Source of the DNA: Helicobacter sp. MIT 99-5507
Lineage (GTDB): Bacteria; Campylobacterota; Campylobacteria; Campylobacterales; Helicobacteraceae
DNA: 64,000 nt
Assembly: GCF_003364295.1 (NCBI RefSeq)
Contig: NZ_NXLO01000003.1
Span: 248,001 to 312,000 of the forward strand
Reading direction: 5' to 3'
This document shows, piece by piece, positions 1,328 to 54,557 of this stretch (its first letter is position 1; each line of letters starts with the position of its first letter). The position numbers were made by a program, and so were the translations under genes. The notes below the pieces were generated by a model. The model did not search any database. It had not been told where the DNA came from and saw only the letters and a program-made list of their open reading frames with translations.

Positions 1328-2060
1328 ATGAATTTTTTAAGAAAAATAAAACATATATTAATAAATATAAAAATTAATATATAGAAAAGTAAATCCGCCA
1401 CAATGGCATAATTTAAGACAGCTAGAGCCGGTTTCTAGAGTATTTGGATTTGATAGGGGAACTCCAATTGATAGAATCTATACAAATGATTTTTTGCAAA
1501 AAAATAAACATCACATCAAAGGCATTGTATGCGAAATAGCAGAATCTACATATACAAAACAATTTGGTAGCAATGTAGTAAAAAGTGAAATTTTGCATTA
1601 TACAAATGATAATCCAGCTGCGACAATCATTGGTGATTTGACAAAATACGAGAATCTTCCAAAAGATTATTTAGATTGTTTTATTTGCACTGTTACATTA
1701 AACTTCATACATGATTATAAAAAAGCAATACAAGGGATTCACTCCATGCTAAAACAAGGTGGAGTAGCTTTGGTAAGTGTTTGTGGTCTCATCCAGATAT
1801 CAAGATATAATTATGAGAGATGGGGAGATTATTATAGATTTAGTGATATGGGAATAAAAAAAGATTTTGAAGAAATATTTGGAGATGAAATAGAAGTTAG
1901 CACTTATGGCAATGTATTGGCTGCTGTAGCAGAATTGCATGGAATTGCAAGCGAAGAATTAAGCAAAGATGAAATTTTTTATAAAGACCCAGATTATCAA
2001 ATATTAATTACTATTGTTGCAAAAAAGTCAGATAAAAACTTAAACAAGGAAAAACTATGA
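1328..2060 (+). pseudogene. SAM-dependent methyltransferase, frameshifted near the N-terminus
   Basis: The natural start is probably ATG 1328, with AGGAG just upstream. It gives 18 codons and then TAG at 1382. One frame over, the reading continues as VNPPQWHNLRQLEPVSRVFG and runs intact to 2060. Losing one A from the A5 run at 1369-1373, or an equivalent change in the adjacent TA-rich stretch, would fuse the two. The joined protein resembles class I methyltransferases found in glycan clusters: FGFDRGTPIDR near the N-terminus, GIVCEIAESTYT as the SAM-binding motif, DYLDCFICTVTLNFIHD, and a GDYYRFSD segment. An internal TTG at 1494 could start a shorter product, but it would lack the conserved N-terminal part. 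The stop overlaps the next gene by ATGA. It is called broken here; phase variation at the A/TA run or a sequencing error are alternatives. Confidence 0.65.
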
Positions 2061-3010
2061 AACAAAAAATAAAAGCTGTTTTGAATAGTAGGGGGGGGGT
2101 AATAGGTAATTTAAGAAGAAAAATTTTTGAAGGCAAAGGTGTAATATTTATGCTACATCAAATAGCTCCAATAAATCCAAATAAACTTCCTGCAAATGAA
2201 AATATGAAAATTAGCCCAGATTTCTTAGAATCCTTTATCATAAATTTAAAAAATGATGGCTATAGCTTTATATCTATTGATGAATTGATAAATCATCTAA
2301 ACAACAACACCTTACAAAAGAAAAATATTTGTATCACAATTGATGATGGATATAAAGACAATCTTACATATGGATTTGATATTTTTAAAAAACATAAGAT
2401 TCCATTTTGTATTTATACTTGTGCTTCATTTTTAGAGAAAAAAGCAAATATGTGGTGGTTTGGGCTTGAAGATTATCTATTGCAACATTCAAGTATAATA
2501 TTTAATGATGAAAAAATAAAGCTAGATACAATAGAAGAGAAAAATATAACTTTTTTAAAAATTAGAGATTATCTTATATCAAAAATCAATGATTATGAAC
2601 ATGCAAAAAACACAATGCAAGAAATAGGCATAAACTATGATATGGATAAATATAATGATTTAGCACTAAATTATGATGATATAAATTTTATGTTAAATGA
2701 CAAAGACAATCTAATGACACTTGGACATCACACATATTCTCACCCAATCTTTAATAATATAAATGATGAAGAAATAAAACAAGATATATTAAAAGCAAAT
2801 AATGTTTTTAATAATCATTTTGGATTTATTCCAAAACATTTTGCATATCCATTTGGAGGCAGGATAGAAGTATCAAAGAAACATTTTGAATTAATAAAAA
2901 ATATAGGTTTTAAAAGTGCTACTACAACAAGGCATGGAAGTATATTTGATGAACATAAAACACATCTTTATTCCCTTCCTAGAATCTTTTTAAAAGACAT
3001 TTTGATATGA
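2057..3010 (+). CDS. polysaccharide deacetylase family protein, phase-variable, ON
   Basis: A NodB/CE4-type deacetylase (317 aa) expected to remove N-acetyl groups from a cell-surface sugar polymer. The catalytic Asp motif is ICITIDDGYKD (about residues 92-102), the zinc-binding HxxxH motif is GHHTYSHP (about residue 223), and the late motif is FAYPFGG. The start ATG overlaps the preceding stop by 4 nt, indicating translational coupling. A run of nine G's covers codons 12-14. With nine G's the frame is open, so the gene is ON in this sequence, and a gain or loss of one G would stop translation early. The C-terminus ends abruptly (KDILI), and a diverged second copy of this 3' end lies 186 nt downstream, so the tail may have been replaced. 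A role in lipooligosaccharide, capsule or flagellar glycan modification is inferred from the neighbours. Confidence 0.8.
   Translation: MKQKIKAVLNSRGGVIGNLRRKIFEGKGVIFMLHQIAPINPNKLPANENMKISPDFLESFIINLKNDGYSFISIDELINHLNNNTLQKKNICITIDDGYKDNLTYGFDIFKKHKIPFCIYTCASFLEKKANMWWFGLEDYLLQHSSIIFNDEKIKLDTIEEKNITFLKIRDYLISKINDYEHAKNTMQEIGINYDMDKYNDLALNYDDINFMLNDKDNLMTLGHHTYSHPIFNNINDEEIKQDILKANNVFNNHFGFIPKHFAYPFGGRIEVSKKHFELIKNIGFKSATTTRHGSIFDEHKTHLYSLPRIFLKDILI
2091..2099 (+). repeat. poly-G tract (G9), phase-variation switch of the deacetylase
   Basis: Nine consecutive G's inside the 5' coding part of the deacetylase in an otherwise G-poor region. Tracts of this length are the standard slipped-strand contingency switch in Helicobacter and Campylobacter. 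Here nine G's keep the frame open. Confidence 0.9.
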
Positions 3011-3235: not shown

Positions 3236-4055
3236 ATGAAATATTTAATAAAAGACATACTAAGACCAATATATCACTATGCTACAAATAAATATTACGC
3301 AAGAGATGTTTATTCATTATTTGATAAGTTGGGGGGGGGCAGCAAGGTATAAAGAGAAGAAAAATATTAAATTTAGAGATTTGATATTTGATATTCCTGA
3401 TAGTTTAAGCTTCATCTATCAAATAAAAGAAATTTTTGGAGATGAGATATATAAATTTAAATCCAAAAATAAAGAGCCACTCATTATTGATTGTGGTGCA
3501 AATGTAGGTGTTAGCGTGCTTTATTTTAAAAAGCTATATGAAAATTGTAAAATTTATGCATTTGAAGCAGATAAAAAAATATTTCAATATTTAGAACAAA
3601 ATATAAAAAATAATAATGCAAATAATATAGAACTGCACAATAAAGCAATATGGATTGATGATAATGGAATCTACTTTGCTAGCGATGGTGCTGATGGTGG
3701 TCATATAGAGCTAGATTCTAAAAATACACAAAAAATAGATTCTGTTGCTTTAAAAAATATCCTCTTAAAACATAGCTATATTGATTTTTTAAAGATTGAT
3801 ATTGAAGGTGCTGAAAATGAAGTCCTGCTAGATTGTAAAGATTCCCTAAATAATATCCAAAATATATTTATTGAATATCATCAAAGACATGATAAACCAC
3901 AGAATCTAGGAGAAATAATCAATATCTTAGATAAAGCAAACTTTAGAATCTATTTAGAAAATATCACAAAATATAAATCACCATTCTTGATAGAATCTAA
4001 AACTTGTGAATTTGAATTGCAAATAAATATCTTTGGTAGAAAAATACCAAAATAA
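3236..4055 (+). CDS. FkbM-family methyltransferase, phase-variable, OFF
   Basis: ATG 3236, preceded by AAAGGA, opens a frame that passes through nine G's and stops four codons later at TAA. One base over, the frame continues intact to 4055. Deleting one G (G8) or adding two would give one protein of about 272 aa. The body is an FkbM-type SAM methyltransferase: LIIDCGANVGVSVLYF (SAM-binding), IYAFEADK, and DFLKIDIEGAENEVLLDCK. Members usually O-methylate sugars or glycolipids. The internal ATG at 3279 has no ribosome site and would give an odd N-terminus. As sequenced the gene is OFF. The 3' neighbour at 4068 is a restriction-system relic, so the glycan cassette ends here. Confidence 0.8.
3331..3339 (+). 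repeat. poly-G tract (G9), phase-variation switch of the FkbM gene
   Basis: Nine G's at about codons 33-35 of the FkbM reading frame. The in-frame solution needs eight (or eleven), so the present length puts translation out of frame, with a stop at GTA-TAA just downstream. Confidence 0.9.
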
Positions 4056-20058: not shown

Positions 20059-21586
20059 CTATTGTAGAGATATACTTCTTATCCTAAATATAAATGCATA
20101 AGATTGATTTATATCATTTTTTGTATCTTGACTTAAATGCCACCATGAACTAAAACCTCTATATGTAAAGCTATATTGCTCTTTTGGCACAACTATATCT
20201 ATTCCATATCCCAAGTATTGCACATCATAAGTATTCATAATCTTTCTAGAGATCCATTCTTGCTCGCCTTTATAAGAATCCTTTGCATCATTTACTAGAT
20301 TTACTAAATTATTCCATTTTGAATTTAAATCATAATAGCAATAACAAACATAACAAAAATAAGATAGAGAAATAGAAATTATAAAATATGCAATCTTTTT
20401 ATTTTGCAAATATTGTTTATTTAAAATCACAATAATAGCAACCAAGAGTATCACACCAAGAGCGCGGGAGCGAAAAGGTAGATTTAAAAGCTGAAATGTG
20501 CTTAAAATACTCAAAAAATAAAAAAATAGCAAAATAGCACAAACTAAAAATCTAGAATCTTTACTTTTAATATGAATATAAATAAACATTCCAAAAATCA
20601 TTAAATACGCAAAAAGTGGAAATTCTATCAATATCAATAAAAATAATATTACAGATAGCACTAAAATTAAAAATCCAAAGATTCTATTTTTTATTTGATA
20701 CCAAAATGCATACACAAAAGCGACAATAAAAGAAACAATAGGAAAAAATATCGGATTTTGATTAAATGCATTTGTTAAAACAATATTTAGTCTAGAGATG
20801 ATTCCAAACAATCCAAGAGACAAAAAATCGCTAATACTTATATAATCATATTTCATAGATTCAGCAAGGATTCTTGCATTTTGTCCAGGTGAAAAAAATA
20901 AAATCCAAAATCCAATAAAAAGCCCAAAAATCCCTAGATAAAACCATAATGGAATAGTTTTTTTATATATCAATTTTAATGTAATTAGATATAAAATCAA
21001 CGCTACTAAAATCAAAGATGAAGTGCCTTCATGCCACATGCCAACAACAAATCCACATATAAACATAAAAATACAAAACCATAGATTTTTTATATTACTA
21101 TTTGTGCTACCCCCCCCCCATTTTTAAAATTTGCAAATTCTTTCTATATGGAATAAGAAATAATAAACTTAGGCTAAAACCCCACAAATAATTCAAACTT
21201 CCACTTCCCCATAAAAATACTTCTTCAAAACTAAGCAATAATAATAGCAATAGCAAAGTTAGCAAGATAGCGGCAAAATCGCATAAATTATTTGGGAATC
21301 TTAAAAATAAAATATAAAAAAATAAAAAGATAAAAACACAGGCTACAATCGCATTTAAAAAATCAAATAGATTCTGCGGAATCTGTGATAGATTTGATGA
21401 AAACAATAACTCACCAAGCCTTGAATTCCAATTTAAAAATACATCAATACTATTTTTTATAGAATCTCTATTGGATAAAATATAATTCCAATCATCACCT
21501 TGTGGTGGAGAGAATATATTTAATAATAAAAAGTATAAAAATACAAATAAAAAAAATATTATAGTTTTATAACTTGTTGCAAACAT
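20059..21586 (-). CDS. phase-variable multi-pass membrane protein (DUF6056/GT-C-like), OFF
   Basis: ATG 21584-21586 opens a 159-codon frame rich in membrane helices. It ends ILKM followed by a G10 tract and an immediate TAG (21107-21109). With nine or twelve G's the frame would continue as GGGSTNSNIKNLWFCIF into the downstream frame to 20059, giving one protein of about 508 aa with around ten helices. The motif set SPPQGDDWNYI, NWNSRLGELL, GSLNYLWGF and GMWHEGTS matches a family of integral membrane proteins (DUF6056-like) that resemble GT-C glycosyltransferases. A surface-glycan role is inferred. It is OFF as sequenced. It lies between tRNA-Ser and a metal/cofactor uptake operon, transcribed divergently from the latter. 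Confidence 0.75.
21110..21119 (-). repeat. poly-G tract (G10 on minus strand), phase-variation switch
   Basis: Ten C's on the + strand, so ten G's in the coding sense, inside the membrane-protein gene. Ten gives ATG-GGG-GGG-GGG-TAG, which is OFF. Nine or twelve would restore the frame. Confidence 0.92.
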
Positions 21587-47714: not shown

Positions 47715-47808
47715 AACTTAAGTTTAACTAGCACATTTAGCTTTTATAGGTGGTAAAAGATAGAATAATACCTACTACAGTTTCTAAACTTATTACTTAT
47801 AATGCTGG

Positions 47809-47979
47809 TTGAGACCCTTATTTAGCCCCATTAAATTAAATAGAATTATTGCACTTAATACAGCTGTAATCGATAAAATCCTAAAAAATATTTCAAAAAT
47901 AACCCATGATTCTAGCCAAACACTAGAATCTATATATAATACTATTTCAAATTATCAAAGGATAAGAGATGACAAATAG
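47809..47979 (+). CDS. small open frame overlapping the yihY start (uncertain)
   Basis: 57 codons from TTG 47809 to TAG 47977, overlapping the yihY ATG by 11 nt, with a helical, amphipathic composition (RIIALNTAVIDKILKNISKI, SQTLESIYNTISNYQRIRD). The frame is open well beyond chance for such AT-rich DNA. There is no good ribosome site. In the next frame just upstream, VVKDRIIPTTVSKLITYNAG runs into a TGA at the junction, so a one-base shift near 47808 could have split a gene of about 80 codons. Not recognised. Confidence 0.4.
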   Translation: MRPLFSPIKLNRIIALNTAVIDKILKNISKITHDSSQTLESIYNTISNYQRIRDDK

Positions 47980-51425: not shown

Positions 51426-52337
51426 ATGAGAAAAAGACTTGTATTTATTATATTTTTTATTATCTCTGCTAGTGGGGTATTTGTATTTATTGCAAATGAA
51501 TATACAAAAAGGCTTGAAAAAAATGCAATAGAAGCATATATGCAATCCATACAAAATGAACTAAAAGAATATTCTCTTGATATGATAGCATCAGATGTTG
51601 AGTGTAGAGGCTTTATAAAACATACATGTAAAATAAATAATGCCAGAATCTATAATAATTTAGAAATAGATCTAACAGATATCACTCTCTCAATAAAAAA
51701 TATATCATATAACAATATTAGCGTATTAATTAATATAGGTAAAATAAGTCATAATAATTACAATCCTTTTTTGTCACTACTCCCTAATAAATTTCAATAC
51801 ACTCTAAATCTACACAAAGTAGATTCCAAACTTGGATTTGTAATGTTAAAACGATCTGTGTATTTCAATTTTGATAGTTTTGATATGAATGCAAATCTAG
51901 ATTTATTATTAAGAGAGAAAAAAAATAGTAATAAAAGCATCTTTTATATATTAAAAGAATGGTTTGATAACACAACTCCGAGCTTTTATGAATATAGTAT
52001 AGACAATCTAGCAATGCGACTAAATGCAAAAGATGGTAATTATAAAAATAATAAATTAATCATCAATATATTAAAAACACTAACCAATAAAATAGATAAA
52101 AAACAATTAAATAATAACAAGCTGGCGTTAAAATATTTAGATGAATTGATAAATAGTGCCGATAAAATAATAGATAAAAAAGCAAATGAAGTTACATTAA
52201 ATGTAAGAAGAAAGAATCCTGATATATCATTTTTTAATTTACTAAACAAAGAAGCAGCTACAAAGAAAAGTCTCGAAATTATAGAAATTATAAATTCCAT
52301 AAATGAGACTTATAATATAAATTTACAAACAAAATAG
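51426..52337 (+). CDS. hypothetical membrane-anchored protein
   Basis: 303 aa. N-terminal signal anchor VFIIFFIISASGVFVFIA, then a periplasmic beta/alpha region with one cysteine pair (ASDVECRGFIKHTCKINNAR, about 59-78) and a Lys/Asn-rich helical C-terminal half. Not recognised. It is 90 nt behind nrfA and ends directly beside the convergent pilin-like gene. The cysteine pair and anchor suggest an envelope protein; nothing links it to nitrite reduction besides position. Confidence 0.55.
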   Translation: MRKRLVFIIFFIISASGVFVFIANEYTKRLEKNAIEAYMQSIQNELKEYSLDMIASDVECRGFIKHTCKINNARIYNNLEIDLTDITLSIKNISYNNISVLINIGKISHNNYNPFLSLLPNKFQYTLNLHKVDSKLGFVMLKRSVYFNFDSFDMNANLDLLLREKKNSNKSIFYILKEWFDNTTPSFYEYSIDNLAMRLNAKDGNYKNNKLIINILKTLTNKIDKKQLNNNKLALKYLDELINSADKIIDKKANEVTLNVRRKNPDISFFNLLNKEAATKKSLEIIEIINSINETYNINLQTK

Positions 52338-52751
52338 TTATTTTGCTTTACCTGTTAATTTCCTACATGATTCATCATTCACATTACAAGTAAGGACTGG
52401 TGATTTTGTATTAGGATCAGTTGTAACAGTTAAAGCAACACTAACAGATCTAATATTAGCAGTCACGCTACTAGCACTATTTACTTTAAATGAGCAATTA
52501 TCACTATTATTGTTTTCTAAAGTTTTTAGATATGTTAGTGTATCAGCAGCATTTATTGTAGCTCCTTGTAAAAATTTTTTTGTGTATTCTCTTGATAAAA
52601 TTGTTTCAGTTTCAGATAGATTTGCTCTAAGTTTTGCAAAACACGCATCATCTCTACTAACTGAAAATCTAGGTAAAGCAATAGCAGTCAATACACCAAC
52701 TATAACAATAACAAACACAAGTTCTATCATACTAAAGCCAACTCTTTTCAT
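52338..52751 (-). CDS. type IV pilin-like / pseudopilin protein
   Basis: 137 aa. Prepilin leader KRVG with cleavage before Phe, then FSMIELVFVIVIVGVLTAIA with Glu at +5, the classic N-terminal helix of pilins and pseudopilins. The globular part carries four cysteines (DDACFAKL, DNCSFKVN, TCNVNDESC). It is divergent from the PilT gene, 150 nt apart, so they may be co-regulated. A major pilin cannot be told from a minor or competence pseudopilin here. Confidence 0.85.
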   Translation of the reverse strand: MKRVGFSMIELVFVIVIVGVLTAIALPRFSVSRDDACFAKLRANLSETETILSREYTKKFLQGATINAADTLTYLKTLENNNSDNCSFKVNSASSVTANIRSVSVALTVTTDPNTKSPVLTCNVNDESCRKLTGKAK

Positions 52752-52826
52752 AGCTAATCCTTAAAATTTTACTCATTTATTTAATATTTGTTTATATTGT
52801 AATTAAATATTCCTTAATATTATAAC

Positions 52827-52860
52827 CATTTTAATTAAATTTACATTTTAATTAAATTTT
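52827..52860 (+). repeat. tandem 17-bp repeat in the pilin/pilT promoter region
   Basis: CATTTTAATTAAATTTA (52827-52843) is followed at once by CATTTTAATTAAATTTT (52844-52860), 16 of 17 identical. Each contains the palindrome TTTAATTAAA. A third AATTAAAT is at 52801. It lies 42 nt before the pilT ATG. Regulator-site array or promoter duplication. Confidence 0.65.
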
Positions 52861-52901
52861 AATAAAATTTAACTAGCAACTTAAAATAAAAGAGGAATGG
52901 A

Positions 52902-54557
52902 ATGGAATCTAATATACGATTAAATAATCAAATAACTACATCAACACCAAAAATAAATACTATTGATGTATTAGCAAATGCAAAACCAATAAGACTAAAT
53001 AATACACCGCAAGAGCAAGAAAACATAGTAGATATAATAAAAAAAGAAGGACAAATCAAACAAACTCCGATACAAAATAACCAACCTCTACAAACCAACC
53101 AATCAATGCAAAATAGCCAAGCTAAACCAATAATCAAAAAAACAATACAAGAAAATACGATACCTAATCCAAGTCAAACAATAATAAAAAAAATAGATTC
53201 CATACAAATAGATAGTATAAGACAAAAAGCACCAAATCAAATTGAAGTGCCAATGACACCACAAATAAATAGCCAAATAAAACAAGAAATACAACAAAAC
53301 ACAATGCCATCTAGTAATCAAGTAGAATCTAAAAAACCAATTAACAATATACAAAATAAAGATAATTTAACAAGAACCCCATTACCAAGCAGTATGGCAG
53401 ATTATGATATATCTCAAATGACGGTTGATATTGATAAATTAGATTTTCATATGACAAAGCACATTAGAGGCTATCTAAAAAAACTAGTCAAAGTTGGTGG
53501 AAGCGATCTGCATATAAAAGCTGGTAGCCCTATTAGAGCGAGAATAAATGGTGATATTGTAATTTTTAGTGAAGAAATTATTAGCAAAAATGATGCACTA
53601 ACATTTGCAAAGGAATTAACAAGAGGAAGATTTGGTGAGCTAGTAGTCAATAAAGAAATTGATATGACATATATTTATGATCAAAATATAAGATTTAGGG
53701 TTAATATTTTCTTTCAAATGGAAGGTGTATCTTTTGCCTTTAGGACGATACCAACCACACATAAAACAACAGAAGAGCTAGGATTGCCTGATGCAATAAG
53801 AAAGATTGTAGACATGGAAAGAGGATTGGTGCTAGTTACAGGTATAACAGGCTCTGGTAAATCAACAACACTAGCAGCTATAATAAATGAAATCAATCAA
53901 AAAAAAGCAAAACACATAATAACAATAGAAGACCCGATAGAATTTGTCCATAAAGATATAAAAAGTATGTTAAATCAAAGAAGTGTTGGAATGGATACAA
54001 ATAGCTTTGCAAAAGCACTGAAAGCTGCTCTTCGTGAAGATCCAGATATTATTCTAGTTGGTGAGATGAGAGATATTGAGACAATAGAAATGGCGCTCCA
54101 TGCAGCAGAAACTGGACACTTGGTATTATCTACATTGCATACACTTGATGCAAAAGAAACAATAAATAGAATCATCTCTGTATTTCCAACTAGCGATCAA
54201 GCAAGGATTCGAGCTATGTTAGCAAGTGTTCTTGCTGCTATTGTATCACAAAGACTTCTAAAAGCAACAAGTGGAGGCAGGGTTGCGGCTGTTGAATTAT
54301 TATTTAAAACACCAAGGATAGAATTAATCATAAGTGAAGGAAGAGATGGCGAGATCTTAGAAGCTCTAGCTGAAGGAAAAGAAATATATCAAACTCAGAC
54401 TTTTGACCAACATTTATTTGACCTTGTAATAAATGGCATTGTAGATGAAGAGGTTGCTATGGAAAAAGCTACATCTCCATCAGATTTAAAACTTAGACTT
54501 CAAAATGTAAATTTTGCAGGACAAAGTAAAGATGATACAATCTCAATCAAACAATAA
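52902..54557 (+). CDS. pilT: PilT/PilU-family ATPase with long N-terminal extension
   Basis: A secretion-type hexameric ATPase that retracts type IV pili. Residues 1-170 are low-complexity and rich in Asn, Gln, Ile, Pro and Lys. The conserved part begins LKKLVKVGGSDLHIKAGSPI (about 191-210). Walker A VTGITGSGKSTTLAA (314 for the first Gly of the loop), Asp box IITIEDPIEFVHKDI, Walker B DPDIILVGEMRDIETIE, His box LVLSTLHTLDA. 551 aa; PilT is normally about 350, so about 180 residues are extra. SD GAGGA precedes the ATG. A terminator follows. Confidence 0.88.
   Translation: MESNIRLNNQITTSTPKINTIDVLANAKPIRLNNTPQEQENIVDIIKKEGQIKQTPIQNNQPLQTNQSMQNSQAKPIIKKTIQENTIPNPSQTIIKKIDSIQIDSIRQKAPNQIEVPMTPQINSQIKQEIQQNTMPSSNQVESKKPINNIQNKDNLTRTPLPSSMADYDISQMTVDIDKLDFHMTKHIRGYLKKLVKVGGSDLHIKAGSPIRARINGDIVIFSEEIISKNDALTFAKELTRGRFGELVVNKEIDMTYIYDQNIRFRVNIFFQMEGVSFAFRTIPTTHKTTEELGLPDAIRKIVDMERGLVLVTGITGSGKSTTLAAIINEINQKKAKHIITIEDPIEFVHKDIKSMLNQRSVGMDTNSFAKALKAALREDPDIILVGEMRDIETIEMALHAAETGHLVLSTLHTLDAKETINRIISVFPTSDQARIRAMLASVLAAIVSQRLLKATSGGRVAAVELLFKTPRIELIISEGRDGEILEALAEGKEIYQTQTFDQHLFDLVINGIVDEEVAMEKATSPSDLKLRLQNVNFAGQSKDDTISIKQ

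Follow-up and report, generated by a model that had tools for sequence, protein, structure and literature searches.

Type IV pili are not usual in Helicobacter. Among the described systems, the MSHA pilus of Vibrio cholerae with its PilT/PilU ATPases (PMC7096442, PMC9815625, PMC6762196) is a close relative of the one predicted here. The two share an MshL-type secretin, an MshE-like ATPase with a c-di-GMP domain, an MshA-like pilin N-terminus, and two PilT-family ATPases. They differ in that the genes here are scattered over the chromosome, that many major-pilin genes are present here and one there, and that the PilT described here carries a 175-residue extension. The pilin antigenic variation of Neisseria pilE/pilS (e.g., PMC6796969, PMC3899283) is also close. 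Both cases involve a type IV major pilin with a conserved N-terminus and a variable remainder, and both show signs of recombination among copies, which in our case are indirect and come from comparison between species. In contrast to Neisseria, the copies here are complete, have their own promoters, and are singly dispersed; no partial silent cassettes, silent-only locus, or single expression locus was identified among them. In the same bacterial family, the H. pylori outer-membrane paralogs bab, hom, and alp undergo gene conversion (PMC4552749, PMC2795765, PMC5971833). They are likewise dispersed, full-length, recombining surface-protein paralogs, encoding outer-membrane proteins rather than a pilus subunit. 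Finally, a GspDEF/PilT/pilin set in H. mustelae was described as a fragmented or remnant system (PMC2846917). It resembles the present system in having a secretin, an ATPase, a PilC-like protein, a PilT, a prepilin peptidase, and a pilin (abundant and expressed in H. mustelae), and differs in that the machine here appears complete and the pilin is multicopy.

The window, i.e., the whole 64,000-nucleotide stretch of DNA analysed, corresponds to positions 248001-312000 of contig C3 in a 1.53-Mb genome of seven contigs (G000). An earlier note on this stretch had proposed a pilin-like gene divergent from a PilT ATPase, and both open reading frames were found as described, with the following features.

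52338-52751, minus strand: small type IV pilin, 137 aa, with class III leader MKRVG/FSMIEL and cysteines at 37, 86, 122, and 129
52752-52901: 150-bp intergenic region between the divergent pilin and pilT genes, with AAGAGGA immediately 5' of the pilT ATG
52902-54557, plus strand: PilT/PilU-family type 4a pilus ATPase, 551 aa, with an extended N-terminus (profile and PDB matches)
52902-53000, plus strand: conserved N-terminal peptide of PilT, residues 1-33 (MESNIRLNNQITTSTPKINTIDVLANAKPIRLN), from the five-species comparison
53001-53426, plus strand: low-complexity linker of PilT, residues 34-175, rich in Asn/Gln/Lys/Ser/Thr/Pro
53427-54554, plus strand: PilT core, residues 176-551, with Walker A GITGSGKST (314-322) and Glu/Asp and His boxes

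Four other genus members retain both genes in the divergent arrangement, indicating that the pairing is not due to chance. In G010, which belongs to the same family but is more distant (2.1 Mb, one contig), the two orthologs are still adjacent and in the same orientation. Taken alone, the pair is predicted to provide a small pilin and a motor for retraction, with nothing out of the ordinary except the conserved extension of the motor. A 303-aa open reading frame with no family match (51426-52337) ends one base before the end of the pilin gene; it is retained next to the pilin in three of the relatives, G002, G003, and G004, and was not seen in G001.

The N-terminus of the window pilin (MKRVGFSMIELVFVIVIVG) bears the prepilin leader with FSMIEL noted earlier; its score against Pfam N_methyl (21.2 bits) falls exactly at the cut-off and that against TIGR02532 exceeds it (18.6 vs 16.3). 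The four cysteines are conserved in the orthologs within the genus. The predicted structure comprises a long helix and a small sheet, as in pilins. A Foldseek search with this structure found nothing significant (best E 0.77), and sequence profiles matched pilins, among them Thermus PilA5, along most of the length. The protein falls outside the family of dispersed pilins described below, with which it has the leader in common and from which its body differs. Because this likeness is confined to the leader, and because the ortholog adjoins pilT even in G010, the simplest reading is that the window pilin is probably minor and goes together with pilT. The suggestion that it is the main pilin thus gives way, as the major pilin is more likely to be the dispersed MshA-like family.

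The window PilT scored 414 bits against the PilT/PilU profile TIGR01420, passing the curated cut-off of 319. The match spans residues 189-528 and approximately the whole profile, and includes Walker A and the conserved ATPase boxes, in agreement with the complete PilT core proposed before. Matches to solved PilTs in the PDB begin at residue ~190 (E 1e-89). The extension was found in all five genus members compared. Mean pairwise identity in the five species is 68% for residues 1-33, 22% for the linker, which ranges from 117 to 167 residues across the genus, and 84% for the core. The 180-residue extension outside normal PilT is therefore real, conserved, and external to the core, although its length should be revised to ~175 residues, since within-genus conservation picks up again at residue ~176. 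Neither the G010 ortholog nor the second PilT (on contig C4) has the extension, and nothing resembling the motif in residues 1-33 turned up in the other proteins compared. A start codon farther downstream, around residue 170, is an unlikely alternative, given an open frame with the same first residues in five species.

The extension may represent a short conserved peptide tethered by a long, flexible linker, and would dock the retraction motor to a putative partner particular to the genus; such a partner can be looked for. An AlphaFold2 model of full-length PilT from a five-row alignment had a mean pLDDT of 36.6, low even in the core, and is therefore mute on disorder and docking. The weak conservation of the linker and its Asn/Gln/Lys/Ile composition, which suits a 29% GC genome, are what one would see if the extension were functionless, either an unconstrained tail from AT-rich drift or untranslated. 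We nevertheless regard this as unlikely: five species retain the open frame and the 33-residue N-terminus with its 68% identity, and the chance that 175 random codons at this GC content would contain no stop is below 1e-6, as estimated from base composition.

The genome search found further pilus genes outside the window.

C3:207305-208282: PilC platform protein (PF00482 match)
C3:208507-209649: extension ATPase, PilB-type
C3:211446-211964: secretin
C4:56185-57180: second PilT-family ATPase, behind three small genes, two of them with weak N_methyl matches
C4:95972: prepilin peptidase (PF01478 and PF06750)

The genes for PilC, the extension ATPase, and the secretin form a single cluster, which also holds a gene encoding 343 aa whose TPR-like match is weak. 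Upstream of the secretin lie three genes whose sizes and order suit PilM-N, PilO, and PilP; they have no Pfam or NCBIfam match and occur in the same order in G010. The secretin scored 261 bits against the MshL profile TIGR02519 (cut-off 250), and the extension ATPase matched both the MshEN domain (PF05157, 53 bits) and the c-di-GMP motif (NF053729, 48.9 vs 38). The corresponding pilus genes of G010 form one compact cluster, and in the genus they occur in three pieces, one of them inside the window. The concern raised in the earlier note, that the genome might hold no other pilus genes, does not apply given this full set. Its proposal of a retractile pilus or a pseudopilus stands in its first part, the type IV pilus gene set being complete; the pseudopilus is unsupported because the secretin and the extension ATPase are those of an MSHA-type T4aP. 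As judged from these genes, the genome is predicted to encode a complete MSHA-subtype type IVa pilus, so that the genus would possess a complete retractile pilus that is probably c-di-GMP-tuned. The MshE-like ATPase, probably responsive to c-di-GMP, would extend an MshA-like fibre through the MshL secretin, and the window PilT together with the second PilT-family ATPase would retract it. We infer that such a pilus may serve for adhesion, for twitching, or for taking up DNA.

In a comparison with 59 relatives, PilT orthologs with at least 55% identity to the window protein were common across the order; within the family they were confined to this genus and G010, as were those above 60%, in line with the earlier description of the genes as unusual equipment for Helicobacter. 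The closest named relatives found were Helicobacter sp. 16-1353 and uncultured Helicobacteraceae, one of them from sheep colon.

DNA uptake in H. pylori employs the Com (ComB) type IV secretion system. ComEC was present in all genomes tested. A search for TrbI/VirB10 (ComB10) found none in G000, G002, and G004, with the H. pylori-like G009, G021, and G031 as positive controls. Type IV pilus-driven DNA uptake is possible, and the genus allows a test of whether such a pilus takes the place of ComB. These two observations would also fit a pilus that serves mainly in DNA uptake as a replacement for ComB, with the pilin diversity incidental. This appears improbable to us, since attachment is the best-known role of the MSHA subtype and G001 carries a TrbI gene. 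The latter gene (TrbI/VirB10, G001:C1:173749-174300) was found in one genus member only and may belong to a conjugative element or to a Com system that has been retained.

The prepilin motif (N_methyl) was detected at 15 places in the source genome, 12 of them above the cut-off. In a comparison of 119 Helicobacteraceae, genomes of the genus had 6-12 such places and all others listed had 0-5. The dispersed pilins comprise nine near-identical full genes (175-183 aa), one diverged gene, and three fragments at contig ends.

C1:446729, 462852, 464879: near-identical pilin genes
C2:34656, 152454, 243178, 356176: near-identical pilin genes
C4:28710, 246663: near-identical pilin genes
About C3:341817-341820: diverged pilin
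C2:2, C4:1, C4:261280: pilin fragments at contig ends

These pilins hardly differ over their first ~90 and last ~30 residues, with a hypervariable middle in between. Among solved structures, MshA was the best match to a dispersed copy. Upstream of each copy, the AT-rich sequence contains a common module of ~110 bp, beyond which the flanks are unrelated. The module of most copies includes an A9-A12 tract, which could tune or switch pilin expression; the 64-kb window has zero A/T runs of at least 9, vs 7.9 expected from mononucleotide shuffles. Such a large major-pilin family had no counterpart in the other Helicobacteraceae sampled, and a literature search of incomplete coverage returned no account of such a repertoire in the family. 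The dispersed major-pilin family, which probably recombines, is more interesting than the window pair. At window positions 47715-47968, between the ftsZ/tesA-side genes and a YihY-like gene, there is no pilin, and G003 has a pilin copy at this place. A possible decayed remnant at 47787-47884, upstream of the YihY-like gene, is in register with the G003 pilin; it is not claimed, because its coding part scored no better than other places in the whole-window scan.

Several pilin positions are common to two to four species, indicating that these loci are old. The copies nevertheless group by genome, with 5 label changes vs 15.2 in shuffled data (0/200 shuffles). At two shared positions, every copy is nearer to a paralog within the same genome than to the copies that occupy the position elsewhere. 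The sequences show concerted evolution at several of the shared positions. In G000, an exact match of 272 bp joins two unlinked copies. A silent-site run test for conversion gave p = 0.0005 in G000, a weak signal in G002 (0.03), and no significance in G004 (0.30). The all-site Sawyer test was set aside, since rate variation along the pilin gene inflates its result. With one genome per species, all this evidence of recombination is a comparison between species. We consider it likely that the genus has a retractile MSHA-like pilus whose major subunit has been diversified by recombination among 10-13 dispersed copies and which the window PilT retracts. Recombination among the copies would homogenise their ends and move their middles between loci, so that the pilus surface could vary. 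We further infer that switching and pilin expression may take place during growth.

A static repertoire, in which many pilins are expressed together in a mixed fibre and within-genome likeness reflects recent duplication rather than ongoing conversion, seems rather doubtful. In its favour, every near-identical copy that is not truncated at a contig end has its full length and a promoter module, so that none is obviously silent, and two positions retain positional orthology, namely the pth/argC-side copy (G000 and G003) and the diverged copy on the recA side. Against it, such a repertoire does not readily explain why positions common to several species hold sequences that group by genome, nor the 272-bp match between unlinked copies.

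Under the favoured reading of recombining copies, exchange would sometimes join different parts of the chromosome. Gene adjacency was broken at 5/20 pilin junctions vs 2/235 others, a count biased by covering only pilin-flanking loci (stretches around matches), which makes breaks at pilins easier to detect. In G000, one pilin lies between a rarA-like gene and bioB and one between mogA and a VDEFK-type gene; in G002 one lies between mogA and bioB, and in G004 one between an ftsZ-adjacent gene and the VDEFK-type gene. Repeats can mislead assemblers, which affects such counts of swapped flanks, and contigs often end inside pilin genes (4/8 ends in G004, 4/14 in G000). The swapped flanks might thus be misjoins across exact repeats of up to 272 bp in draft assemblies of chromosomes that are in reality collinear. 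This explanation appears unlikely to us: frequent breaks imply that the assemblers tended to stop rather than join, the longest exact repeat found in G002 is 79 bp and spannable by reads, and copy number and grouping by genome are independent of the joins.

A broader version of the recombining-pilin reading is offered tentatively, as a possibility that falls short of our expectation. The genus may vary the coat of its type IV pilus through ~12 genes for full-length major pilins, many of them under A-tract promoters that possibly switch; these genes would recombine with one another and rearrange the chromosome, while the PilT with its tethered peptide controls retraction. The genus offers a second setting besides Neisseria for studying pilus variation, and for asking whether repeated surface genes cause the chromosome to rearrange.

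The window also contains poly-G/C tracts 9-10 bases long, which are candidates for slipped-strand phase variation. They lie at 2091 inside a polysaccharide deacetylase-like open reading frame (2057-3010) and at 3331 inside an FkbM-type methyltransferase-like one (3279-4055), names assigned by reading the sequence only. A third tract, at 21110, lies at the 3' end of the open reading frame 21107-21586, immediately ahead of the frame 20059-21066, which possibly continues the former.
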